Source of the DNA: Candidatus Aceula lacicola
GTDB lineage: Bacteria; Omnitrophota; Gorgyraeia; Zapsychrales; Aceulaceae
Assembly: GCA_030765785.1 (NCBI GenBank)
Contig: JAVCCC010000029.1
Location: 1 to 46,173, forward strand
Reading direction: 5' to 3'
DNA length: 46,173 nt
The position numbers and the translations under genes were made by a program. A model generated the notes under the pieces. That model made no database searches. It saw only the letters and a program-made list of their open reading frames with translations, and had not been told where the DNA came from. Below are positions 4,926 through 31,420 of the stretch, one piece after another; the first letter of the stretch is position 1; the number at the start of each line of letters is the position of its first letter.

Positions 4926-5535
4926 GATTTGTGGCATAACAAACAAAAACGATGCGTTGGCAGCAAGCTCACTTGGGGCATGGGCTGTAGGGTTTATTTT
5001 TTATAAAAAAAGCCAACGCTATATTAAGCCTGAAGAGGCTAAAAAGATTATTGAGTCTTTGCCAAAGAAGGTTTTGTCTGTCGGTGTTTTTGTTAATGCT
5101 CCGAAAGAAGAAATCGACGCGGTTGTCAAGTTTTGCAAGTTAAAAGTTGTTCAGCTTCACGGTGACGAGACGCCATCATTTTGCTCTAAGCTTAAAGGTG
5201 TTAAAACAATCAAAGCTATTCGAGTTAAGAGTAAGATGGATGTTGCAAAGTCTTTAAAATATAAAACAGATTATTTGCTTTTTGATACATTTAAAAAGAA
5301 TGTTTTTGGCGGAACAGGTGAAACTTTTGATTGGGATATCCTCAGGAGTCCTAAACTTAAAAAGAGAAATGTTATTCTTTCAGGTGGCTTAAGTTCAAAG
5401 AATATTGCTCAGGCTACTTTGTCTATTAAAGCTTATGCATTTGATGCATCTAGCGGGGTTGAGAGAAGGCCAGGAAAGAAATGCCAGCGGCTTTTGAAAT
5501 TATTTTTTAAAGAAATTAACGGAGGCAAAGCGTGA
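4912..5535 (+). CDS. trpF: Phosphoribosylanthranilate isomerase TrpF
   Basis: TrpF performs the Amadori rearrangement of phosphoribosylanthranilate to CdRP. The protein has 207 residues. The N-terminal KICGIT motif carries the general-base Cys7, and the acid Asp lies in AFDASSGVE near the C-terminus. GVFVN, VQLHGDE and ILSGGLS are the other family signatures. The start lies inside trpC (14-base overlap), and the end overlaps the next gene by 4 bases. The position after trpC is the normal order, so this completes trpG-D-C-F here, while trpB and trpA lie about 12 kb downstream. Confidence 0.95.
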   Translation: MARIKICGITNKNDALAASSLGAWAVGFIFYKKSQRYIKPEEAKKIIESLPKKVLSVGVFVNAPKEEIDAVVKFCKLKVVQLHGDETPSFCSKLKGVKTIKAIRVKSKMDVAKSLKYKTDYLLFDTFKKNVFGGTGETFDWDILRSPKLKKRNVILSGGLSSKNIAQATLSIKAYAFDASSGVERRPGKKCQRLLKLFFKEINGGKA

Positions 5536-6200
5536 GCAAGATTGTTTTTGACATAGAGACATGTGGGCAAGATTTTGATTCTTTAGATGAAAAATCACAA
5601 GATTATTTCTTAAGATTTGCAAAAACTGATCAAGAAATTGAAGATGCAAAGAATAGCCTTTCGTTTTATCCTGTGACAGCTCAAATCATAACAATCGGCA
5701 TGTTGGATGTTGACACGGATAAGAGTTTTGTTTTTTTTCAAAATAATGGAAAGGCAGAGAAAATTCAAGAAGGAAATGTGACATATGTTTCTGGAAATGA
5801 AAAAGAAATTTTAGAACATTTTTGGAAACTGATTGATAAGGCGAGCATTTTCATTACATTTAACGGGCGCATATTTGATTGTCCATTTGTTATGCTTCGT
5901 TCTGCTATGAATTCAGTGCGTGCAACAAAAAATCTTATGCCGTATCGTTATGGTCAAGGACCGCATGTTGATTTGATGGATCAGCTCACGTTTTATGATG
6001 CTATGCGAAGAAAGTTTAGTCTTGATATGTGGTGCAAAGCTTTTGGTATTCAAAGTCCGAAAGAAGAAGGAATTACTGGGCTCCAGGTTAAAGATTTCTT
6101 TAAAGAAGGCAAGCATATGGACATCGCTCGTTATTGTGCTAGAGATCTTGTGGCAACAAGAGAACTCTATATATATTGGGATAAATATATTAAGCCATAA
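5532..6200 (+). CDS. Predicted 3'-5' exonuclease, PolB-exonuclease-like (DEDDy family)
   Basis: The 222-residue protein resembles the stand-alone exonucleases related to the proofreading domain of family B polymerases. DEDD motifs are visible in order: DIET at residues 7-10 (Asp7, Glu9), an FNGRIFDCPF segment in the middle, and YCARDLVAT near the C-terminus with the Tyr/Asp arrangement of DEDDy enzymes. The cellular substrate is unknown; single-strand trimming of DNA or RNA is inferred. The start is GTG at 5532, supported by a GGAGG Shine-Dalgarno sequence at 5521-5525, and it overlaps the trpF stop. It is the last gene of this run and is followed by a long leader region. Confidence 0.85.
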   Translation: MSKIVFDIETCGQDFDSLDEKSQDYFLRFAKTDQEIEDAKNSLSFYPVTAQIITIGMLDVDTDKSFVFFQNNGKAEKIQEGNVTYVSGNEKEILEHFWKLIDKASIFITFNGRIFDCPFVMLRSAMNSVRATKNLMPYRYGQGPHVDLMDQLTFYDAMRRKFSLDMWCKAFGIQSPKEEGITGLQVKDFFKEGKHMDIARYCARDLVATRELYIYWDKYIKP

Positions 6201-6836: not shown

Positions 6837-9800
6837 ATGATTGTTTGCCTAGAGAAATCCAGACAAAAACTTCCGTCTAAAATTGTTTCTATTTTTATTG
6901 CTATCTGTTTTCTTTTTAGCTCTATTGCACCGGCTTACGCCCAGAGTCTGTCCGCGCTTCCTGTACCAGGGACCATGGTTGCTCCAACGCCTGGATTTTT
7001 TCCAGTTTTAGTTAGGGCTTTGGAGATTAATCCAGACAATCCTCTGCAGTTTGGTTTTATTGTGGATAATGGCGATACCGGTCTTGAGGGTGATGAGCTT
7101 ACCCGTGAAGCTAAAAAACTTATTCGCTATTTTTTAGCGTCTTTAACAACGCCAGAAAAGGATATGTGGGTCAACCTTTCTCCGTATGAACAGGATCGTA
7201 TTGTTTCTGAAAATTTAGGGCAAACACAAATGGGCCGAGATCTTTTGGCTCAAGATTATATTTTAAAGCAATTGACGGCTTCTTTAATTTATCCAGAAGA
7301 TGAATTAGGTAAAAAGTTTTGGGATAAAATTTATAAGGCCGCTTATGAGAAATTCGGCACAACTGACATTCCGTTGAATACGTTTAACAAGGTATGGATT
7401 GTGCCAAAAACAGCTAAAGTTTATGAGCATGACAATAAGGTCTTTGTTATTGAGAGTAAGCTTGAAGTTATGATGGAAGAAGATTATTTGTCCCTGATGG
7501 AAAATATGGGCAATAAATCAATTGGAGCCGATAAGCAAAGCGAATCAACATCAAAAGAGATAAGTGCAGTTTCGTCTTCGATTGTACGTGAAATTATTTT
7601 GCCAGAAATTGAAAAAGAGGTAAATCAGGGCAAGAATTTTGCCAGTCTTCGCCAGATTTATAATGCGATGATTTTGGCGGCTTGGTACAAGAATAATCTT
7701 AAAGAAAGTCTTTTAGGCAAGGTGTATGTTGATCAAGGAAAAACCAAGGGCATTGAACTTAATGACAAGCAGGCGAATCAAAAAATTTACGACCAGTATC
7801 TAGAAGCCTTTAAAAAAGGCGTGTATGACTATATTAAGGTAGAGAGCGATCCTCAAACAGGAAGAAATATTCCAAGAAAATATTTCTCTGGTGGCGTTGT
7901 TTCTGTTTCCTCAAGCGGTGTTCCTTTGAGTGGCATGGTGCAGAATGTTGTGCCATACGCAAGAGATATAGTTCAAAAAGGGGATGTGAATCGCTATAAT
8001 ATTGGCCTTGTTGAGAATACAGATGATGTCATCAGCTCGGGCATAAAGAAAAAGAAAGCCCTTCCCGGGCAGGCTGTATTTGCGATGGGAGCTTTAAATG
8101 CCTACAACAATCGTTTCAAAGATAACCCCGCAACTATCCCAGCATCAAAAAGAAAAGAAATGGAGTGGCCGTCGGTTCTTAAAGATCCGGATAATGCGGT
8201 TAATATAGCTATTTCTGGTATCGGAGCAATTGGAAAACTTTTGATCCGACAATGGCGTCTTTATAACAACCCCAACATGAATGTCGTTGCCATTATTGGC
8301 AAGTTAGCAGATCCAAGAAAATCAGAAGACGAAAATCTTCAGTACCAGCTAGCAAATGCAAAAGACATTGTTGAAAAAACAAAGTTTAGCTCAGCTCACG
8401 GAAAGTTTGATGCTGCGGAATTAGAGGCCGGCATAGATGATAAAGGTGTCTTTATCAAGATTGACCCAGACACATCCCGAGAAAAACGTATCAGCGTTGT
8501 TGATAGGCAAAAAGACGCTGCTAATTATCCATGGAAATCACTCGATGTTGATATTCTTATTGAGGCTTCGGGTAATGCCACAGAAGTGTCCCAAGCCCGC
8601 AAGCATGTCGAGGCAGGTGCCAAGCGCGTTCTTATTGCTGCTCCTGGTAAAGGGGTAGAAGGTACGTACGTTGTTGGCGTTAACGAAGAAAAATTTGATC
8701 CAACAGACCCCAAGCAAGTTGTTGTGTCTAATGCATCTTGCACCACCAATGCCATTGCTCCGGCGATGAGTGTTGTTGAAAAAATAGGCTTTGTGGCCGG
8801 AAGCATGAATTCAACCCATGCCGCAACAAACAACCAAAGGCTTTTGGATTTTTCGTTCCTTGCAAAAACTGAACAGGGATGGGGTGCGTTAAGAAATATT
8901 AGTCTCACCGGCACGGGAGCCTCTAAGGCTCTTAAGCAGTTAGGAAAGAGCCTATGGGCAAGAATGACAGGTTCGGCTTATCGCGTCGGCACAGCAACAG
9001 GTTCTGTTATAACGCTAGATTGGAAATTAATAGATCCGAATACAACCGTTGAAGATATTATTAAGGAATTTGAAGAAGCGCAAGACGGATATCTTAAGGG
9101 AATACTAAAAATAGATAATAGCCTTTCAACGCGAGACATTCTTGATACTACCGAGGGGGCTATTGTTTCAAGACAATCCATCAAGATTGTTAGAGACGGT
9201 GATGATGCCATGGCGCATGTCCAGATTTGGTATGACAATGAGTATGGATACACGACTCAGTTGATGAAAATGATTGATGAAATAGCAAAAAAGACGGAAA
9301 TGCAAAAGAACGGGGAAAAGATTATCATTAAAAAAGACGCCCCTGTTGAGCTTGCTCCTGTTGCTTTAGCAAAAGATATTGCAGAACCAGAAATTCCAGA
9401 TAACATTCTTGAAGTGCGCAAGCCAATCAAGACTCTTAAGCGTCCGGTTAAAGTTGGTCTCAATGGCCCGGGACGCGTGGGCCGGTTATTTATTCGCGAT
9501 TTAGTTGGAAATCCAAATATTGATTTGGTGTCTATTCCTTATTCTAAACCTTCTGATTTAGCTAGAATGATAAGCATTGATACGGTTCATCGTAGACTTG
9601 ATGCAGATCTTGAGTTTAACGATACAGAGCGCTGGATTTCAATTAACGGAAAGAAAATTCACGTTCCTTATCGCTCTGTTGAACAACCAAGTATTGAAGA
9701 GATTCTTGATGAGCTTGGTGTTGATAAAACACGTGAGGACATTAGTGTAGATAGTAAAAAAGGAATTCTTAAAGTTGGAAAAAAAGAGCTTCGTATTTGG

Positions 9801-12800
9801 TCCGAGAGGCCAACAGAGCCGGCTGACATTGATTGGTCCGCTGACGGCGCAGAAATCGTTATTGATGCTACAGGCAAGTATGTTGAGCCAGGAATGCTCG
9901 CAGGCCATTTAGGCGGAACTGTTAAAAAAGTTATTTTAGCAGCCCCTGCCAAAAGTCTCAAAGAGCCAGGAGCTCCGGGAATTGATGGCACATTTGTCTA
10001 TGGTGTTAATGAAAAAGATTTTGATGCCAGAAAACAGGCGAGCCTATCCAATGCCTCTTGCACGACGAATGCATTAGCCCCTGTTGTTAAGGTTATCCAG
10101 GATGTTTTTGGTGTCAAGATCGGGATGATGTCAACAACGCATTCTGAAACTGTAAGCTATTCTAATCTTGACTCACGCAAAAAAAGCGCAAGCAGAGAGC
10201 CAGGCAGTCCGGATAATATTACTTTAACAACAACAGGCGCAGCCAAGGCATTAGGCCTTGTTATCAAGGAGCTTAAAGGTAAGCTTGATGGTGATGCTTT
10301 GCGCGTCCCTTCACCTGATGGTTCTATTATCAATTTAACTATCGAAACTAAAAAACCTGTTAAAGATGCTGCTACATTAAATAAAGTTTTAAAAATAGCG
10401 TCCGAGGGTTACCTTAAAGGCCTTCTCGCTGTTGAAAAAATAGAAACCGTCAAGCATGTTATTGGAAGACTTGAGGCAGCTGTTGTTGCCGAGCAAGGAA
10501 CATCTGTTCAGCAGCTCCCTAACGGAGGAAGTCTTATAAAAATACATATTTTCTACGATAATGAAAGAGGTTACAATGCTCAGCTTATCCGTTTCACGGA
10601 ATATGTTGGTCAAGAAAGCCTCGCGGCAGGAGTTCTCCTGGCCAAAGTTAGCTCCGCTATTCCAGGAAAAGATTTTGCGGATGTTGAATCGTTCTCGATT
10701 AATATGCCAGAAAATGAAATACGCACTCTTATTGAAATTGAAGGTGGACTAAAGATAAAAGAGATTCGTTCGTCAGACTCAAGAAAAGTGAAGAGCGATG
10801 ACGATGCGGTTCGCTATCTCTATGGCACTGGGAATACTGTTCGCAAAGATCATGACACGTTAGATGTTATTTTTGAGTCAGACAAGGTGGGTGCTTTTGT
10901 TGAATACAAAAGAGACAATGAAGCAGGTTTATGGAAACGTGTTCGCGTTAGCTCAAATATTGCTGCTACTAAAGAGGATGCTCTTCAAAGCAAAGTGATC
11001 GAAATTCTTCCGTCTCATGGCTTAAGTCCAAGAATAAAGGGCAAAGACGAAATTAAACGCTTTTTAGAAGGAAAGCGTGATCGTTCTGGTCTTAGTATTA
11101 TGGGGATTTTACGTCAACTCGAAACTGATTACGGCATTGAGCGTATTGATATTCAACCAGTCCCCCTTCGCGGAACGGTTGCAGAATTTATTAACTATAT
11201 TTCTAAGAATGCAAAGATCAACAGTTCCAGCAGAGAGCGAACTGAGAATATGATTAGGCAGGCTGTCGTGAAGGTTTCACCAAAAAAGTCAGTTGAGTTA
11301 GTTTCCCAGATTGATCTTGCAAAAACACCTGAAGATTATGGCATAGATTCTGACAATTTCATGTTTCTTTCTTATGAGATCGAAAGACTTTATGGAGTTG
11401 AGGTTGATGATGCCTTTTTGCAAATGCCAATCAATGAACTTGTTTATGTTGTTGAGACAAAGAATTTAAGAATTCCAGCGGAAAATATTATTAGCGATTC
11501 TTTTAGTCAAAAAACTTTTAAAATCGATAATAAAATGCGTACTTTTGATGGACAAATCACAAGCTTGTATTCGCCGAAAGTAGATCAAACTTTAAAGGTC
11601 CGTTCTATTGGTGTAAACAGGGATGTCGTGGAAGCATACATAGAAGAGGGAAATACTTTAGATGAAGAAGCAATGATGTTTAATCCGCCTGAAGGTGTAG
11701 TTGAGATTAAAAGCGATATGGTTCTCGGGGTTGTTCGAAATGAGATTTTAAGAAGAGGGCTTGATAGTGTTAGAGAGAAATTTCAAGGACCTATTATTAA
11801 GACAATGGTCGGGCGAACAATATCAGGAAAGGACGCAGTAGTCAGCTCCACGCTGACTTCTGAGCAAGAAAAACAGATAAACGCTGTCTTCAAGAATTTA
11901 ATAGCTTCTGATATCCTAGAATTAATGACTGAAGAGGAGCAAATGTTTGTTGATTCAGCTAAGGATTTCGCTCAAAGATATCTTTTGCCTAACAGATTGT
12001 ATTGGGATGAAGAAGGCGCGAAGAATGAGAATGGAAAAATTATTCTTCCTGAGGGCTATCAAGAAGCCTTGGATAAATTTAGCGAATTAGGTTTTATGAG
12101 CCTTATTATTCCAGAAGCGTATGGTGGTATGGGAATGGATTTTTCAGTTATTTATCGAGTGATTCTTGAGCTGGCTAAAGCCTCTCCGAGTTTTTCCGTA
12201 ACTATTGCGGTCAATACATCTGTTATTGCTGCGATTATGGAGCATGGCACAGACGAGCAGAAGGAGAAATATTTACCTTTAATAGCTGAAGGAAAATCGC
12301 ATGGTGCTATGGTTATTACTGAGCCTGAGGCGGGATCTGATGTGCAAGCGATAACGCTCAAAGCGGAGGATCAGACAGATGATCTTATAGCTAAAGAAAA
12401 AGGTGAATTTTATATTCTCAATGGCACAAAGCATTTTATTACCTCTGTTGGTATCGCTGATGTTTACATTGTCTTGGCTGTTACAGGGAAAAAGCCCAAC
12501 GGCAGAAAAGAAATCAGCGCTTTTTTAGTCGATGCTAAAACTCCAGGAATATCCACAGGATCTGAGCTGCATCATAAGCTGGGACAAAAAGCTTCGCCGA
12601 CAGCTTTTTTAGGATTTGATAACGTTAAGGTTTCAAAAGATAATCTTCTTGGAAATCGCGGTAAGGGTATGGGTATTATTTTATCTATGTTAACAGACGG
12701 TCGGATTACCATTATGTCTTTGGCTGTCGGTATTGCCCAAGCAGCTTATGAAAACGCCGTGCAATTTGCTTCAGAAAGAAAACAATCAGGCAAGTATATC

Positions 12801-15146
12801 AATGAGCTTCCGGCTATTCAAAATAAGCTCGAAGAAATGGAGTGGGCGGTTTCGGCTGCGAAACTTTTGCTTAATTATACGGCCTCTATCAATGATGATT
12901 CGGCTGAAAATCTGGTCAAGAGAAGTGCCTTAGCATTAGCTGCTTCTTCGGGGAAAACATTTGCTGGCGAAACGGCTGAAAATGTGGCGGATCACGATAT
13001 TCAGATTCATGGAGGTCCTGGATATATGGTGGATTATATCCCTCAGCTGTTGTGGCGCGATGCTCGCATTACAACAATATACGAAGGGACATCAGAAATC
13101 CAGCGCTTAATCATTTTGGGTACGCTTTTGAATCTTTTTACCGAAAAGGAAAAAAGAGGAGGAGGAGTAACGGATATTGCGCAGATGGATATTTATACAA
13201 AATCTGTCAGCGATTATTTAAGTGTGAATTTGGAAAAAGAGACAGCCCCAGAAGAGCTTAAAGAAATGTATAAAGTAATTAAGACATTTGAGGTTGGATT
13301 GAATAAACAATTAATGGCTTTAAAGGATGATCCAAATAATAAAGTGTACGAAAAAACTATAAGTGATCTATTCACTTATTGGACCATTGCGCGTCTTACG
13401 CTTTTGGTGACGCTAAAACTTAATGAAGAGGAGCTTAATTCAGTTGCGTCCATTTCCAAGCTTCGCGACAAATATCAAGAACATGCTCGCGTCGCTACAG
13501 AAAAGCTTCCGATTGCCTGGCGTCTTTACAAGCAGCAGCAGAAAACAGTGGCAAGACGTCCTGATACTGCTATTAGCTCGGGGATTGTTATTGATTGTCT
13601 TTCTGGAAGATTTGATGTTAATTATCTTGTTTCAAAAATTACGACAAAAATGAAAGATTTTTCGTATTTTGAAATCAAAGAAGATAGTTATTTAGATCAA
13701 TTTGTTGAATTGGGCGCGGGCGTTGTCGTTCAAGACTTTGCGGAAGGAATAAAGCTGAATAAAAATGATGAATTAATTCTAGGATTTCGGAAAAAAGGAG
13801 AAGAAGGTAAGGAGTTTCCTTATTTTATTAAGATAAAGCAATCTGATTTTAAAATTACTATTGATTTGCCGAAGATAGATGTGGCTGCAGGAGAAGCGGT
13901 TGTTCAGATGTTTGAGGAGATGCTTAAGAGCGCCAGCTCTACGGTAGTCTTTCAAGATAAAGTTGAGGCGAACAGCGTATACGATGTAGTTGCTTATATC
14001 CGAAATTCCAAAAAAGGTAATTATGGAATTCCTTACGAGATCAATCTTTATGGCAGTGATCACTTCATGAAGGGCAATGGCTTTCCTGGCAATGTAAGAA
14101 AAGGAAAGTTTAATGAATTTTTTGATAAGGAGAAAAGTGAAAATTGGCATCTGACCAAAGAGGAAGAAGTTGCTTCAATTGTTTTTATTTTTAAGGTTAA
14201 GCAGGGTCATGATGGTGTTGAATTTTATGAGAAACAAACAACGATTACTGCCACACGTGTAGCTGGCACAAATTTTTGGAAGCTTGAGGGTGAGGGCGAA
14301 TGGGACAGAAAGGTGGTAGGATTTAAAATTGCTAAAACAAAAATGAGAGAAGCTGCCCAAATTATGGGAGGCCAACCAGCTATCAAGGTTGTGGAAGCTT
14401 TTAAGCCTATATTGAATGATATTTTTGAGATTAAGGATAGTTCTATTCAGGTTACTATTGGTGAAGGACAGAAATCTCTAAAAGTTCAAACACCATCCGT
14501 AGATTCAGAATGGAAAGGTGGGCTTGAAGAATGGTCCTTAGAGAAATGGACGGAAAAGAAAGCAAAAATCAGTTCGAATGTTGTTCTTGATAGGATGAAT
14601 AAACAAATAGGAGAGAAGATTTCTAAAGGTTTGAGTCCGGAACAAGCTCAACAAAAGGCTATGGAGTTGGTTAAAGGCCTTAAAGCTGGTTCTCTCGGTG
14701 GCAACTTCTTTGATTCTTACAATAACTTTGGAATTGGTTATCGTTTTATGATTTTTGATGGATCTTGGCGAGCGGTGACAGTATATGATGCAAAAGACAG
14801 AGTGAATATTGATGCAAATAAAGCTAAAAAGTATACGGAAAAAACCAGCTCGGCTTTTCCTGTTGGCGGTATCAATTTGGATTCAGGGCTTCTTGATCTT
14901 CAGATTGAGCGTGACGGAAACGGCGTGCCGCTTCCTGTATCGCAGCAGCCAATCGAGACAATGAACATACAGGGTTTTTCATTTTACATTATGAGCATTA
15001 CTCCTGTGGCAAGTCTATTTTTGCTTTCAGGGATTTTTGATCCAAATAAGAAAGAGGCGAGTTTAGATCTTGATCAGGATTTGCAAGCTAAACTTTCAGA
15101 TAGGTTTCAGGCAGAGGAACCACGAAGAGTGAGTGCGTTAAGTTAA
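6837..15146 (+). CDS. Giant exported multidomain protein: Omnitrophota N-terminal region, two GAPDH modules, two ACP-like segments, acyl-CoA dehydrogenase module, unknown C-terminus
   Basis: This is one uninterrupted 2,769-residue frame. Residues 1-35 form a Sec signal peptide ending in AYA. About 36-350 is a helical region of the type opening very large Omnitrophota proteins (LPVPGTMVAPTPGFFP is typical). GAPDH-1 spans about 450-820, with nucleotide loop SGIGAIG, Cys635 in SNASCTTNA, His661 and WYDNEYGY. GAPDH-2 spans about 866-1262, with NGPGRVG, Cys1075, His1102 and FYDNERGY. Two ACP-like segments lie near 1400-1455 and 1480-1545; the second keeps a Ser (1505) in GIDSDNF. The acyl-CoA dehydrogenase module spans about 1697-2096, with Glu2083 in IYEGTSEIQ as the expected catalytic base. 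About 2100-2769 is unassigned and ends with a hydrophobic stretch (2711-2734) and a charged tail. Catalytic residues look intact, so activity is possible, but NAD, FAD and CoA are not expected outside the cytoplasm. Processing into separate enzymes or a structural role are alternatives. Start and Shine-Dalgarno are clear. Confidence 0.9.
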   Translation: MIVCLEKSRQKLPSKIVSIFIAICFLFSSIAPAYAQSLSALPVPGTMVAPTPGFFPVLVRALEINPDNPLQFGFIVDNGDTGLEGDELTREAKKLIRYFLASLTTPEKDMWVNLSPYEQDRIVSENLGQTQMGRDLLAQDYILKQLTASLIYPEDELGKKFWDKIYKAAYEKFGTTDIPLNTFNKVWIVPKTAKVYEHDNKVFVIESKLEVMMEEDYLSLMENMGNKSIGADKQSESTSKEISAVSSSIVREIILPEIEKEVNQGKNFASLRQIYNAMILAAWYKNNLKESLLGKVYVDQGKTKGIELNDKQANQKIYDQYLEAFKKGVYDYIKVESDPQTGRNIPRKYFSGGVVSVSSSGVPLSGMVQNVVPYARDIVQKGDVNRYNIGLVENTDDVISSGIKKKKALPGQAVFAMGALNAYNNRFKDNPATIPASKRKEMEWPSVLKDPDNAVNIAISGIGAIGKLLIRQWRLYNNPNMNVVAIIGKLADPRKSEDENLQYQLANAKDIVEKTKFSSAHGKFDAAELEAGIDDKGVFIKIDPDTSREKRISVVDRQKDAANYPWKSLDVDILIEASGNATEVSQARKHVEAGAKRVLIAAPGKGVEGTYVVGVNEEKFDPTDPKQVVVSNASCTTNAIAPAMSVVEKIGFVAGSMNSTHAATNNQRLLDFSFLAKTEQGWGALRNISLTGTGASKALKQLGKSLWARMTGSAYRVGTATGSVITLDWKLIDPNTTVEDIIKEFEEAQDGYLKGILKIDNSLSTRDILDTTEGAIVSRQSIKIVRDGDDAMAHVQIWYDNEYGYTTQLMKMIDEIAKKTEMQKNGEKIIIKKDAPVELAPVALAKDIAEPEIPDNILEVRKPIKTLKRPVKVGLNGPGRVGRLFIRDLVGNPNIDLVSIPYSKPSDLARMISIDTVHRRLDADLEFNDTERWISINGKKIHVPYRSVEQPSIEEILDELGVDKTREDISVDSKKGILKVGKKELRIWSERPTEPADIDWSADGAEIVIDATGKYVEPGMLAGHLGGTVKKVILAAPAKSLKEPGAPGIDGTFVYGVNEKDFDARKQASLSNASCTTNALAPVVKVIQDVFGVKIGMMSTTHSETVSYSNLDSRKKSASREPGSPDNITLTTTGAAKALGLVIKELKGKLDGDALRVPSPDGSIINLTIETKKPVKDAATLNKVLKIASEGYLKGLLAVEKIETVKHVIGRLEAAVVAEQGTSVQQLPNGGSLIKIHIFYDNERGYNAQLIRFTEYVGQESLAAGVLLAKVSSAIPGKDFADVESFSINMPENEIRTLIEIEGGLKIKEIRSSDSRKVKSDDDAVRYLYGTGNTVRKDHDTLDVIFESDKVGAFVEYKRDNEAGLWKRVRVSSNIAATKEDALQSKVIEILPSHGLSPRIKGKDEIKRFLEGKRDRSGLSIMGILRQLETDYGIERIDIQPVPLRGTVAEFINYISKNAKINSSSRERTENMIRQAVVKVSPKKSVELVSQIDLAKTPEDYGIDSDNFMFLSYEIERLYGVEVDDAFLQMPINELVYVVETKNLRIPAENIISDSFSQKTFKIDNKMRTFDGQITSLYSPKVDQTLKVRSIGVNRDVVEAYIEEGNTLDEEAMMFNPPEGVVEIKSDMVLGVVRNEILRRGLDSVREKFQGPIIKTMVGRTISGKDAVVSSTLTSEQEKQINAVFKNLIASDILELMTEEEQMFVDSAKDFAQRYLLPNRLYWDEEGAKNENGKIILPEGYQEALDKFSELGFMSLIIPEAYGGMGMDFSVIYRVILELAKASPSFSVTIAVNTSVIAAIMEHGTDEQKEKYLPLIAEGKSHGAMVITEPEAGSDVQAITLKAEDQTDDLIAKEKGEFYILNGTKHFITSVGIADVYIVLAVTGKKPNGRKEISAFLVDAKTPGISTGSELHHKLGQKASPTAFLGFDNVKVSKDNLLGNRGKGMGIILSMLTDGRITIMSLAVGIAQAAYENAVQFASERKQSGKYINELPAIQNKLEEMEWAVSAAKLLLNYTASINDDSAENLVKRSALALAASSGKTFAGETAENVADHDIQIHGGPGYMVDYIPQLLWRDARITTIYEGTSEIQRLIILGTLLNLFTEKEKRGGGVTDIAQMDIYTKSVSDYLSVNLEKETAPEELKEMYKVIKTFEVGLNKQLMALKDDPNNKVYEKTISDLFTYWTIARLTLLVTLKLNEEELNSVASISKLRDKYQEHARVATEKLPIAWRLYKQQQKTVARRPDTAISSGIVIDCLSGRFDVNYLVSKITTKMKDFSYFEIKEDSYLDQFVELGAGVVVQDFAEGIKLNKNDELILGFRKKGEEGKEFPYFIKIKQSDFKITIDLPKIDVAAGEAVVQMFEEMLKSASSTVVFQDKVEANSVYDVVAYIRNSKKGNYGIPYEINLYGSDHFMKGNGFPGNVRKGKFNEFFDKEKSENWHLTKEEEVASIVFIFKVKQGHDGVEFYEKQTTITATRVAGTNFWKLEGEGEWDRKVVGFKIAKTKMREAAQIMGGQPAIKVVEAFKPILNDIFEIKDSSIQVTIGEGQKSLKVQTPSVDSEWKGGLEEWSLEKWTEKKAKISSNVVLDRMNKQIGEKISKGLSPEQAQQKAMELVKGLKAGSLGGNFFDSYNNFGIGYRFMIFDGSWRAVTVYDAKDRVNIDANKAKKYTEKTSSAFPVGGINLDSGLLDLQIERDGNGVPLPVSQQPIETMNIQGFSFYIMSITPVASLFLLSGIFDPNKKEASLDLDQDLQAKLSDRFQAEEPRRVSALS

Positions 15147-15259: not shown

Positions 15260-15565
15260 ATGAGTGAAAAATTAATACGTATTTATAAAAAATTTCATAC
15301 CGATGAAATCAAAGAACACGTCTTGGTTTGTGGCGACTTATTCGCGAATTGTTCAAAATGTAATGCTGTTGGGATTAAGACCAGTGCTGATAAGTGTCCT
15401 GAATGCTCAACACAATTTAAGTATGTGACTTTTCGAAACGTCAAAGGAAATATGCCAAAGATTCATAAACTGATTGATGAAAGATCAGATTTGATTTTTA
15501 TTGATTACGATGATTTTAAGCGCGCAACAGGCTCGCTCAAGATTGAAGGATTATTTAATGATTAA
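15260..15565 (+). CDS. Small zinc-ribbon-like protein of unknown function
   Basis: The protein has 101 residues. Two CxxC pairs, NCSKCNAVG and KCPECSTQF, about 16 residues apart, suggest a four-cysteine zinc ribbon between roughly residues 31 and 53. The remainder is charged, ending in a possible alpha/beta segment (DLIFIDYDDFKRATGSLK). I do not recognise a named family. AAAGGAAAAA precedes the ATG and a TATAAT promoter lies just upstream. Its last 8 bases overlap the start of the M20 peptidase gene, so the two are likely translated together. No membrane segment or signal peptide is present, so it should be cytoplasmic. Confidence 0.8.
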   Translation: MSEKLIRIYKKFHTDEIKEHVLVCGDLFANCSKCNAVGIKTSADKCPECSTQFKYVTFRNVKGNMPKIHKLIDERSDLIFIDYDDFKRATGSLKIEGLFND

Positions 15566-16697
15566 AGAAAATCGGCTTATTAGCCTTACGCAAAAAGTCT
15601 TGCAGATCAACTCTGAAAATCCTCCTGGAAACGAGCTCGTACTTTCAAAATTTATTGAGAAAGATATGCGATCTTTAGGACTTACGGTTAAGACGTATAC
15701 TTTTGCAAAGGCGCGTCCGAATGTTGTCGCTGTTTTAAAGGGAAAAAATAAAAAGCTTGCATCAAAAAAAGCGATTTTAATCACGCCTCATTTTGATACA
15801 GTCCCGTTCGGCAAAGGATGGAAACACGATCCGCTTGGCGGAGAAATCAAAAATGGACGCATATATGGCCGAGGCGCAACTGACGACAAAGGAAACTTGG
15901 CGTGTGCTATGGAAGTGATGCGTAGTCTCGTTGAAGATAAAGTAAAGTTTGACTATGACATTATTTTTGCAGCTACTGTTGATGAAGAGACAGGAAGTCG
16001 TTATGGCATTATTCCGCTCCTTGAAAAAGATATTATAAAACCAGAGGCAGCGCTTGTATTGGATTCTGATGAATTTTATTCGATTATCGCACAAAAAGGT
16101 TTGATGCACGGACGCATCCAAGTTTTTGGCAAGAAATCTCATGGGGCTTACAATTGGCGAGGAGTTAATGCCATTGAGCTTGCTTCTAAGATTATTCAGG
16201 ACTTTAAGGCGCTTAAATTTAAACATAAGAAGCATCATTTCTTGCGTCCACCAACAATGAATATTGGAACGATTACGGGTGGAGATAAGGTAAATATGGT
16301 TGCTGATTTTTGTGAATTTTCTTTTGATTTTCGTTTTATGCCGGATATGGATCCTAAGAAAAGTATTAAAAGATTTAAGTCTGTTGTGGCTCGTCATGCC
16401 AAGAGAGCAAAGCTTATTATTGATGATCTTCAGATGCCTTATGAAATTGATCCTACGCATGATTTGGTGAAAATTTATGAAAATACTTGTAAGAGGATGA
16501 AGCGACCCACAACGCTAAAGGGGAGCGAAGGTGCAACCGTGATTACGTTTTTTCAAAAGAAAAAAATTCCGGCGATTGCTACAGGATATGGAAGTTCAAA
16601 AACAGCGCATACAACCGATGAATATGCGCATGTCAAGAAATTGTGCGATGGTGCAAAGGTGTTGGAGCAATTTTTAAAGGATTTTGACGAGCGATGA
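15558..16697 (+). CDS. M20-family metallopeptidase/deacylase (DapE/ArgE-like)
   Basis: This is a zinc-dependent amidohydrolase of the M20 family, which includes succinyl-diaminopimelate desuccinylase, acetylornithine deacetylase and carboxypeptidases. With the start at 15558 the protein has 379 residues. The metal and catalytic motifs are in order: TPHFDTVP (His and Asp), GRGATDDKG (bridging Asp), VDEETGS (Glu-Glu pair), LDSDEF and a C-terminal TAHTTDE. A longer frame opens at 15501 inside the preceding gene, but the ATG at 15558 has AAGGA upstream, sits at the usual overlap and gives the normal family N-terminus. The substrate cannot be fixed from sequence. The 3' end overlaps the DUF3108 gene by 4 bases. 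Confidence 0.88.
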   Translation: MIKENRLISLTQKVLQINSENPPGNELVLSKFIEKDMRSLGLTVKTYTFAKARPNVVAVLKGKNKKLASKKAILITPHFDTVPFGKGWKHDPLGGEIKNGRIYGRGATDDKGNLACAMEVMRSLVEDKVKFDYDIIFAATVDEETGSRYGIIPLLEKDIIKPEAALVLDSDEFYSIIAQKGLMHGRIQVFGKKSHGAYNWRGVNAIELASKIIQDFKALKFKHKKHHFLRPPTMNIGTITGGDKVNMVADFCEFSFDFRFMPDMDPKKSIKRFKSVVARHAKRAKLIIDDLQMPYEIDPTHDLVKIYENTCKRMKRPTTLKGSEGATVITFFQKKKIPAIATGYGSSKTAHTTDEYAHVKKLCDGAKVLEQFLKDFDER

Positions 16698-28457: not shown

Positions 28458-29969
28458 ATGAGTTATTTATCTAAGAAAAGATTATTTTGCTCAAGTAAAA
28501 AAGAATATTTGAGATTAAATATTTTATCTATTTTCAAAAGTCCTTATTTTTATGTTCTTTTTTGCGCTTTTCTTATGATTGTCCCATCTTTGCAATGGTC
28601 TTATTTATTAGATGATATTGATAATTTTTATCTTGTTTCTCAGATGAAAGGAGCAGAGGATTTTTTTGGATATCTGCTGCTTCCTGGGGATGGACATTTT
28701 ATTCCTTTTTTTCGTCTTTTTTATTTTATTTGTTTTAAGTTATTTTGGCTTAATCCTTTGCTTTCTCATATTATTGTTACATTCTTTTTCTTTTTGTCAG
28801 GAATAATATTGATGAAACTCATTGAACAGCTGACACGTTCCCGGGTGGCGGGCATTTTTGCGGGAATTCTAGTTCTTCTCTCAACGGGTTACAAGCGATG
28901 CCTAGAAATTGCTTTTTCGCATTCTGTGTTTAGCTTACCGATTATTCTTTTTGCGCTTTATAGCTTGATAAAATATCAGCAAACGAAGAAATCATGTTGG
29001 CATTTTTTCGTTATGGCATGTATTGTTATTGCACCTTTATTCTCAGCAATGGGAATTTTGACTGGGGCATGGGTTATTCTTTTTACGTTTTTGTGCCTTG
29101 ACGATAGGAATTGGAAAAAAACATTGGCCGGACCTTTTGTGGTCTGGGTTTTAAGCGTTGTTCTTTTTCTAATGGAAACAAGGGCTATTTCTACGATTGC
29201 AAATCCCATCGAGCGTTTATTGAATACTGCCTTGTTGACAGGCAAGGCCCTCTGGATTTATACTTTGCCCTGCTTGACCTCCTATAAAGATTTGTCTTGG
29301 TTTTTGTGTGTTTTTTTCTTTTTGATGATATTTGTTCAAAGAAAAAGGATTAATTTTAAGATAGTTACTTTCTTTATTTTGTGGATTATTGGTAATTATT
29401 TCTTTGTTTATTTTGGACGAGGCAAGTGGGGGATGCGGCTTATTTATTCTCCGAGATACGCGTTCTACCCCTCTTTTGGGATCGCGTCCATCATTTGCTT
29501 AGTTCTAGGATCCATTGTGCAAAGTAAAGAATGGATTTATTCTCTTAAATGTAAAAAGAAGATATTAATTCCTATTCTTATTTTTCTTGCTGCCGCACAT
29601 GTTGCTTATCAACATAAACTAATTTTGCAGCAAACAGAAAAGAAAAAAAGTCTTTTTATTATCGGTCTTAATATGGAATCCGCACTGGAACATTATTTGC
29701 AAGAAAGCGGTAATAAGCAGATTTTTCTAGAAGATAAGCAAACGGGCTTGAGAAGTCTTTTTCCTGGTCCACGTTTGATGAGCTATTATACGTCTTTTTT
29801 ATTAAGAGATGACTTGAAGGGGAGCATTGTTTGGACAGCTGATAAAACAGATTGGGATTTTCTTCAATATATTAAAATGAAACAAGCCCAATATTTTGAA
29901 TTCTTTGAATTATTGCAAGATGCGCAATATTTTGAAAATGAGAGAGTTTTAAAGGCACGAGATTCGTAA
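28458..29969 (+). CDS. Polytopic membrane protein, possibly GT-C-type glycosyltransferase
   Basis: The protein has 503 residues and by eye about nine to eleven hydrophobic segments between residues 29 and 390, followed by a soluble tail of about 110 residues. After the first membrane segment comes a loop with Asp52-Asp53 (SYLLDDIDNF), a position where GT-C glycosyltransferases often carry an acidic pair. That is the only functional hint, and I do not recognise a named family. The sequence is very rich in Phe and T-rich codons compared with its neighbours. Start at ATG 28458; the upstream Shine-Dalgarno is weak. It stands between the helicase and the YkgJ-type gene with 120-130 base gaps on each side. 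Confidence 0.65.
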   Translation: MSYLSKKRLFCSSKKEYLRLNILSIFKSPYFYVLFCAFLMIVPSLQWSYLLDDIDNFYLVSQMKGAEDFFGYLLLPGDGHFIPFFRLFYFICFKLFWLNPLLSHIIVTFFFFLSGIILMKLIEQLTRSRVAGIFAGILVLLSTGYKRCLEIAFSHSVFSLPIILFALYSLIKYQQTKKSCWHFFVMACIVIAPLFSAMGILTGAWVILFTFLCLDDRNWKKTLAGPFVVWVLSVVLFLMETRAISTIANPIERLLNTALLTGKALWIYTLPCLTSYKDLSWFLCVFFFLMIFVQRKRINFKIVTFFILWIIGNYFFVYFGRGKWGMRLIYSPRYAFYPSFGIASIICLVLGSIVQSKEWIYSLKCKKKILIPILIFLAAAHVAYQHKLILQQTEKKKSLFIIGLNMESALEHYLQESGNKQIFLEDKQTGLRSLFPGPRLMSYYTSFLLRDDLKGSIVWTADKTDWDFLQYIKMKQAQYFEFFELLQDAQYFENERVLKARDS

Positions 29970-30425: not shown

Positions 30426-30469
30426 AAGTTTTAATATTCGTTTAGTTGACTGTAATGGAGGCGTACTGC

Positions 30470-31420
30470 ATGTATAGAGAGCAGCTTAAAGTTTTAGATT
30501 GCACAATTCGTGATGGGGGGCTGATTAATAATCATGATTTTGATATTAAGTTTGTTCGGGAAGTTTATAGGGCTGTTTCTCAGTCTGGCGTTGATTATAT
30601 TGAGCTTGGGTATAAGAATTCAAAAAAGCTTTTTTCTGAAAAAGAATATGGGCCTTGGAAGTTTTGCGATGATGATGTCATCAACCAGGTTGTTGATGGC
30701 ATTGAGTCCGATGCCAAGGTGTCGGTTATGGTGGATATCGGGCGTGTTGACATCGCTGACGTTAAGCTTGCAAAAGATAGCCCCATCGATATGGTGAGAG
30801 TTGCGTCCTACGTAAAGGATATTGATAAAGCGATTGCTATGGCTAATGATTTTCATAAAAAGGGTTATGAAACGACGATTAATATTATGGCTATTTCGAG
30901 AGATCAAGGTCTAGAGCTTACGCAAGCTTTGCATCAGATCGAAAAGGAATGCGAGGCAAAGGCAATCTATATCGTTGATAGTTTTGGATCTCTTTATCAG
31001 GAATCGACTGAAGACTTGGTAAAACAATTTAAAGATATTTTAAAGACAAAAGAGGTTGGATTTCATGGGCACAACAATCAACAGCTTGCGTTTGGAAACA
31101 CAATTGAGGCGATTATTCACGGAGCCAATTTTTTAGATGCGACTGTTTATGGCATCGGACGCGCTGCTGGCAATTGTCCGTTGGAGCTTCTTGTCGGATT
31201 TTTAAAGAATCCAAAGTTTGATATTCGGCCGATTTTAGAATTAATTTCTAAAGAATTTATTCCGTTACGTGATAAAATTGAATGGGGATATATTATCCCG
31301 TATGCGATTGCTGGAATGCTCAATGAGCATCCTAAGCTTGCTATGGCGTTACGAAAAAGTGAGCATAAAGAAAATTATCGTGAGTTTTACGAAAGCCTGA
31401 CAAGCACGGAAACAGAATAA
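30470..31420 (+). CDS. HMGL-like aldolase (4-hydroxy-2-oxovalerate aldolase/homocitrate synthase superfamily)
   Basis: With the start at 30470 (TGGAGG at 30456-30461) the protein has 316 residues; an earlier ATG at 30446 has no ribosome-binding site. The fold is a DRE-TIM metalloaldolase. LDCTIRDGGLINNHDF near the N-terminus carries the metal and catalytic Arg-Asp pair, and VGFHGHNNQQLAFGNT carries the metal-binding HxH motif. DATVYGIGRAAGNCPLE is the C-terminal signature. These features match DmpG-like aldolases cleaving 4-hydroxy-2-oxoacids, but the actual substrate is open, and there is no acylating aldehyde dehydrogenase partner nearby. It heads a run with two receiver proteins and a histidine kinase, an unusual pairing. 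Confidence 0.83.
   Translation: MYREQLKVLDCTIRDGGLINNHDFDIKFVREVYRAVSQSGVDYIELGYKNSKKLFSEKEYGPWKFCDDDVINQVVDGIESDAKVSVMVDIGRVDIADVKLAKDSPIDMVRVASYVKDIDKAIAMANDFHKKGYETTINIMAISRDQGLELTQALHQIEKECEAKAIYIVDSFGSLYQESTEDLVKQFKDILKTKEVGFHGHNNQQLAFGNTIEAIIHGANFLDATVYGIGRAAGNCPLELLVGFLKNPKFDIRPILELISKEFIPLRDKIEWGYIIPYAIAGMLNEHPKLAMALRKSEHKENYREFYESLTSTETE

Follow-up and report, generated by a model that had tools for sequence, protein, structure and literature searches.

A single giant gene of Candidatus Aceula lacicola encodes what is probably (at a rough probability of 60%) an exported, enzymatically competent polyprotein that acts outside the cytoplasm, and that belongs to a family whose members retain both of their ends while exchanging the cargo carried between them. 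That family is large, previously unnamed, and found in the Omnitrophota, which are little-known, very small, widespread, uncultured and probably host-associated bacteria. The gene (hereafter 'W') lies in a window of 46,173 nucleotides, which is the whole stretch of DNA that was analysed, and its features are collected in Table 1; all of the evidence described below is computational, and is drawn mostly from draft genomes.

We infer a mechanism in which a Sec signal peptide would direct the protein beyond the cytoplasm, the constant N- and C-domains would probably serve in transport, anchoring or sorting, and an invariant pair of glycines at each of the inner borders could be a hinge or a site of processing. 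Between those borders would sit a swappable cargo built from divergent proteins of cytosolic type, prominent among them glycolytic and gluconeogenic enzymes (GAPDH-GAPDH, PGK, enolase, TIM, aldolase, PGI and PPDK/PEP synthase), whose cargo copies would stay enzymatically competent and do their work in the periplasm or at the surface, after release, or within a partner or prey cell.

Table 1. Features of W and of its syntenic neighbours, with positions in the window.
Feature	Position	Strand	Basis or remark
PolB-like 3'-5' exonuclease, upstream syntenic neighbour of W	5532..6200	+	
Giant frame W, 2769 aa	6837..15146	+	Single unbroken ATG frame, 8.3 kb
Sec signal peptide, residues 1-35, predicted cleavage between AYA and Q	6837..6941	+	Sequence; AxA-Q common to paralogues
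Family N-domain, residues 36-353, C-terminal end PRKYFSGG	6942..7895	+	Alignments, AF2 model
Linker 3' of N-domain (SSSG, SSGI)	7896..8189	+	
GAPDH module 1, residues 452-819, catalytic Cys635	8190..9293	+	Pfam, PDB sequence matches
GAPDH module 2, residues 869-1258, catalytic Cys1075	9441..10610	+	Pfam, PDB sequence matches
Weak acyl-carrier-protein-like stretch, residues ~1479-1540	11271..11456	+	PDB match E = 0.075 only
Acyl-CoA dehydrogenase module, residues 1695-2098	11919..13130	+	Pfam, PDB sequence matches, motifs
Region without assignment	13131..14864	+	Without PDB match
Family C-domain, residues 2677-2740, starts GGINLD	14865..15056	+	Conserved across family; low-confidence AF2 model
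M20 peptidase, downstream syntenic neighbour of W	15501..16697	+	

The initial annotation of this DNA had described one long frame in which a Sec signal peptide, an N-terminal region of Omnitrophota type, two GAPDH modules, two ACP-like segments, an acyl-CoA dehydrogenase module and about 670 further residues stand in series, and most of that description was borne out. The frame is uninterrupted from its ATG, and its N-terminus displays a Sec-type pattern (a call made on that pattern alone). The N and C domains of GAPDH (PF00044 and PF02800) are each found twice by Pfam, the N, M and C domains of acyl-CoA dehydrogenase are complete at residues 1698-2094, and PDB sequences agree for both enzymes; the dehydrogenase further bears the motifs IYEGTSEIQR (which includes the catalytic Glu, residue 2081), ITEPEAGSD and QIHGGPGY. 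The ACP-like segments fared less well, in that an acyl carrier protein was the sole and weak PDB match to the region and Pfam made no call there; near that region, a stretch of 197 residues is shared at 35% with a 1226-residue orthologue from the same genus. Homology between W and a same-genus orthologue also runs approximately 50 residues beyond the FSGG motif, into the linker. A sequence search with the last 665 residues returned no PDB match, and those residues end in a C-terminal domain common to the family. Elsewhere in the window, a frame of 503 residues (28458-29966) is without a significant Pfam match.

The N-terminal region of W is a real domain. Used as a query, the first 454 residues of W retrieved approximately ten other frames or frame pieces from the organism's own 1.5-Mb genome; of these, seven are complete and others are cut by contig ends, and most encode 1200-2700 residues. 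Nine of the N-domains from that genome are 49-60% identical in alignment, all nine ending in PRKYFSGG, and the last approximately 60 residues of the paralogues are likewise conserved and in most cases start with GGI(D/N), while the sequences between the two domains have little or nothing in common. The plan of the family thus comprises an N-domain of approximately 320 residues, a variable cargo, and a C-domain of approximately 60 residues; W has the signal peptide, the N-domain ending in FSGG and the C-domain starting with GGI. The cargos of its paralogues include PPDK-like domains (C8a), a circularly permuted enolase (C8b), PGK together with an HMGL-like domain (C18), methyltransferases (C49), a weak FHA match (C14), a weak acetyltransferase match (C1), and unrecognised regions. 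An HMGL-like enzyme also occurs as a standalone gene in the window, at 30446-31417.

Beyond this genome, a profile of the N-domain found matches in 137 of 384 genomes sampled across the Omnitrophota and in 59 of the 61 listed genomes of the window's order (its own included), and among 84,980 species genomes scanned the matches came almost exclusively from the Omnitrophota. Copies per genome range from 3 to 86 among the genomes counted, with the highest numbers in a 2.6-Mb genome (86) and a 2.2-Mb genome (59), and two genomes of the same genus have 29 and 14 matches; at least 41 family frames occupy approximately 7% of one 2.2-Mb genome. In genomes G087 and G114, which hold 59 and 86 copies, the copies are often in tandem and their cargo is mostly short and without Pfam matches. 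Within the scanned loci 69 frames have both ends, the C-domain closing nearly every complete frame that has the N-domain, and the cargo spans 263-2908 residues (median 1303). The N-termini of the family display positive charge, then a hydrophobic stretch, and then AxA-Q; 97 of 110 pass a crude rule for signal peptides, and the failures shown look signal-peptide-like by eye.

Neither of the two terminal domains could be matched to a family in the databases searched. The N-domain has no match in Pfam, NCBIfam or PDB sequences, and when an AF2 model of it (pLDDT 77, pTM 0.79) was compared by Foldseek with the PDB and a viral library, neither collection gave a match at E < 0.1, so that a known fold was rejected within that scope. 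The C-domain likewise has no match in Pfam, NCBIfam (sorting domains included) or the PDB, and its AF2 model is of low confidence. The roles proposed for both domains are suggested by their position and conservation. A description of the family was not found in the open-access, published literature searched.

The locus occupied by W offers a direct view of cargo exchange. It is syntenic in two genomes of the same genus and one of the same family (four genomes, with its own), the flanking genes, including the exonuclease upstream and the peptidase downstream, being 48-92% identical. The proteins found there have N-domains at 63-75% and C-terminal tails at 52-61% relative to W, and yet the four proteins (2769, 1226, 1563 and 3244 residues) carry largely different cargo; no Pfam domain was found in the cargo of the three syntenic relatives of W (L155, L156 and the 3244-residue L031). 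Synteny accompanied by a changed middle indicates exchange, or rapid replacement, of the cargo while the ends are kept. The same comparison bears on the possibility, named in the initial annotation as what would refute it, that an assembly error had joined separate genes. The genome is indeed a draft in 56 contigs, but flanks and both ends are conserved around different cargo in three other genomes, and the unit formed by the N-domain and two GAPDH modules is continuous over 1269 columns with a protein from an independent genome; a chimera was rejected on these grounds and is extremely improbable.

That independent protein (L143, also sampled as L086) comes from Candidatus Zapsychrus exili, which belongs to another family of the same order, and its first 1179 residues align continuously, at 50%, with residues 1-1259 of W. 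Of the order of modules that the initial annotation had proposed to seek in other Omnitrophota, the part from the N-domain through the two GAPDH modules does recur there, and its further suggestion of an undescribed system, with enzyme modules in series behind an export signal, is supported across the family. In its full length of 2991 residues, L143 carries GAPDH-GAPDH-PGK-enolase-class II aldolase, and other members carry TIM-aldolase-enolase (L144) or PGK-enolase (L064). A survey of 60 cargos also produced matches to PGI, PPDK/PEP synthase, FBPase, phosphoglucomutase, starch synthase, 4-alpha-glucanotransferase, debranching enzyme and glutamate dehydrogenase (Pfam tallies for alignments cover the 25 most frequent families). 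In two heavily expanded genomes, 27 cargos yielded only seven Pfam families, mostly metabolic, and that thin yield indicates that glycolysis is prominent among the cargos and not universal. A linker motif, SSPV, is over-represented approximately 25-fold in a subset of cargos (L035, L049, L070 and 16 others), often near module borders, with 38 occurrences against 1.5 expected. Because it is present in 19 of 125 cargos and absent from W, it was dismissed as a processing motif and is probably a lineage-specific linker.

Phylogenetic trees place some of these modules apart from their cytosolic counterparts. The first GAPDH module of W groups with the first of L143 and the second with the second, both apart from standalone GAPDHs, and this module-by-module grouping implies that the tandem unit is probably older than the split of the two families, with due caution for long branches. 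Cargo PGKs are separate from standalone PGKs (with the same caution), and the branches of the enolase tree are too long for placing the cargo copies. Standalone GAPDH and PGK are present in the organism's own genome in addition to the cargo copies. Standalone enolase is found in both same-genus genomes and in nearly all relatives, so that its gap in this genome is probably one of assembly, and the idea that a giant protein supplies the only enolase of the genome was rejected. The fast turnover of cargo at a fixed locus, its diversity, and the large expansions in copy number might all be produced by recombination that captures random genes to little benefit, the cargo then decaying. Such an origin is nevertheless improbable, given the very long open frames, the conservation of catalytic residues, and a tandem GAPDH unit that two families of the order share with module-by-module orthology.

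The pattern of conservation within the cargo enzymes is selective. They are approximately 28-47% identical to standalone enzymes, and keep approximately half of the columns that are invariant among the latter. In all four cargo enolases, 12 of 12 active-site residues are kept, as against approximately 56% of the other invariant columns; at that background (0.56 per column, with columns assumed to be independent) the chance of keeping all of the active-site residues is approximately 1e-12. Among these is the circularly permuted enolase from the organism's own genome (contig C8, L009:6315-11030), in which the C-terminal barrel (residues 936-1259) comes before the N-terminal domain (residues 1279-1445) and every active-site residue is kept. 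All four GAPDH copies keep the seven catalytic residues that were checked, including Cys149, His176, Arg231 and Asn313. The better-preserved copies of PGK retain all or nearly all of their catalytic residues, whereas more divergent ones (L055, L073 and L159) have lost some.

The statement that all of the key catalytic residues checked in W are present stands for most of them, but not for two positions: Arg10 of the dinucleotide motif is Ala in the first GAPDH module, and neither module keeps Asp32, the residue that binds the ribose of NAD. That second replacement (at residues ~480-490 and ~895-905) is the same in the distant relative, so that it affects all four GAPDHs in a module-specific manner (AIIG or SIPY), which suggests a changed use of cofactor. 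Taken as a whole, the sequence evidence suggests that the cargo proteins function as genuine enzymes beyond the cytoplasm of the cell that makes them.

The cargo is also nearly devoid of cysteine. Across 125 frames (157,726 residues), cysteine occurs 0.76 times per 1000 residues, and 69 frames have none; soluble neighbours, drawn from the same loci and perhaps including a few spurious frames, have 12.9 per 1000, corresponding to a depletion of approximately 17-fold (p ~2e-50). Supported neighbours of cytosolic type have 12.5 cysteines per 1000, 12 neighbours of exported type have 3.7, and a further 29 cargos, taken from two other genomes, have 0.92. W has five cysteines, of which the signal peptide accounts for two, the GAPDH nucleophiles for two and a further site for one, and two of the three in the cargo of L143 are again GAPDH nucleophiles. 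A radical-SAM-like cargo (L106:5437-8640) that is otherwise cysteine-poor keeps the three cysteines of its CxxxCxxC motif, and a PEP-synthase-like cargo keeps its CGQ motif, these being cysteines that we take to be catalytic or cluster-binding; other scattered cysteines persist in cargos without a known role. The simplest reading of this pattern combines selection against cysteine outside of the cytoplasm with selection for catalysis, and the near-total loss would fit a chain that is exported unfolded, by way of an oxidising compartment and probably on through the outer membrane. An engineered disulfide stops the outer-membrane passage of an autotransporter passenger (PMC8419823), which by analogy provides a precedent for, and not proof of, transport-driven cysteine loss in the family.

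Two further explanations must be weighed against these observations. Were the N-terminal segment an uncleaved anchor, the enzymes would remain in the cytoplasm as a membrane-tethered metabolon, in keeping with a cargo drawn from cytosolic pathways, whose enzymes depend on cofactors of the cytosol, and with the fusion of part of a pathway. That arrangement is improbable, because the N-termini follow a cleavable pattern oriented for export, the depletion of cysteine has no obvious cytoplasmic cause, and separate canonical enzymes are already present. The main rival, also raised in the initial annotation, holds that the folds of the enzymes have been reused as structural or adhesive modules, displayed on the surface for binding, with catalysis irrelevant. 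The enzymes classically described as moonlighting on surfaces (GAPDH, enolase and PGK) overlap the list of cargos, and many cargos are without a recognisable enzyme, which counts against an enzymatic reading in general. Giant proteins of the Omnitrophota have, moreover, been proposed as adhesins (PMC10066038). Structural reuse is nonetheless unlikely, since catalytic residues are selectively kept, including all 12 of the permuted enolase, and catalytic cysteines survive where almost all others have been erased; both observations favour working enzymes over structural reuse, which was one of three functions offered in the initial annotation beside a processed polyprotein and a surface-displayed enzyme array.

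The reading as exported, working enzymes carries a bolder extension, namely that part of the glycolytic/gluconeogenic pathway is exported as nearly cysteine-free, cargo-swapping polyproteins, via a dedicated route, as yet undescribed, that the N- and C-domains define, and that its reactions then run beyond the cell's own cytoplasm, for instance on the surface of partner or prey cells or within them. That extension is tentative, and is judged possible rather than probable. Glycolysis requires NAD, ADP and phosphorylated sugars, all of them in short supply beyond the cell, and this, together with the loss of Asp32 from GAPDH, counts against exported, working enzymes in general; neither a transporter nor a processing enzyme for the family was identified. 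A coupling of exported ATP-making enzymes to an ATP/ADP translocase is unsupported, PF03219 having no match in 28 genomes, where controls were silent as well. The Omnitrophota do include an epibiontic predator (PMC10066038), and that lifestyle, together with the adhesin giants proposed in the phylum, makes interaction with other cells plausible.

Teaching treats glycolysis as a pathway of the cell interior, and divergent, apparently active versions of its enzymes strung in series after an export signal would represent a new kind of extracytoplasmic metabolism or of effector delivery. The family would further provide a handle on how the Omnitrophota interact with other cells, its N- and C-domains serving as a marker and as a candidate secretion signal, and the erasure of cysteines nearly everywhere except at known catalytic or cluster sites would offer a natural means of testing export as well as activity.

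Several known systems share individual traits with the family. Polymorphic toxins also combine constant delivery ends with an exchangeable payload, whereas the payload here consists of metabolic enzymes, both ends are constant, and no toxin/immunity gene pair was seen for the family. Cargo of Type IX secretion resembles it in placing a short conserved C-terminal domain on diverse proteins; the C-domain of the family, however, has no match to an NCBIfam sorting domain, and membership was rejected on that basis (SprA_N was found in none of 19 relatives, with a control that was also silent). Autotransporters (type V secretion) share the Sec signal peptide and a variable passenger between conserved ends, and the blocking of passenger secretion by disulfides (PMC8419823) parallels the family's lack of cysteine, but the family ends in a domain of 60 residues rather than a beta-barrel; no beta-barrel domain was called in W or in the paralogues scanned, and PF03797 is absent from W and from its own genome, so that this assignment too was rejected. 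The giant open reading frames reported from the same phylum (Seymour et al. 2023, PMC10066038) are similarly very long, poorly annotated and possibly surface-located, yet they exceed 20 kb and have transmembrane helices and adhesin domains, whereas W is 8.3 kb long and has no adhesin domains, and its family is set apart by fixed N- and C-domains, by a scarcity of cysteine and by a cargo of enzymes; the text of that report makes no mention of enolase, glyceraldehyde enzymes or fusions. Finally, the eukaryotic TPI-GAPDH protein (PMC3527533) also fuses two glycolytic enzymes behind a targeting peptide, but it is mitochondrial, whereas the fusions described here are bacterial, contain up to five modules, bear a Sec signal, and exchange their cargo.
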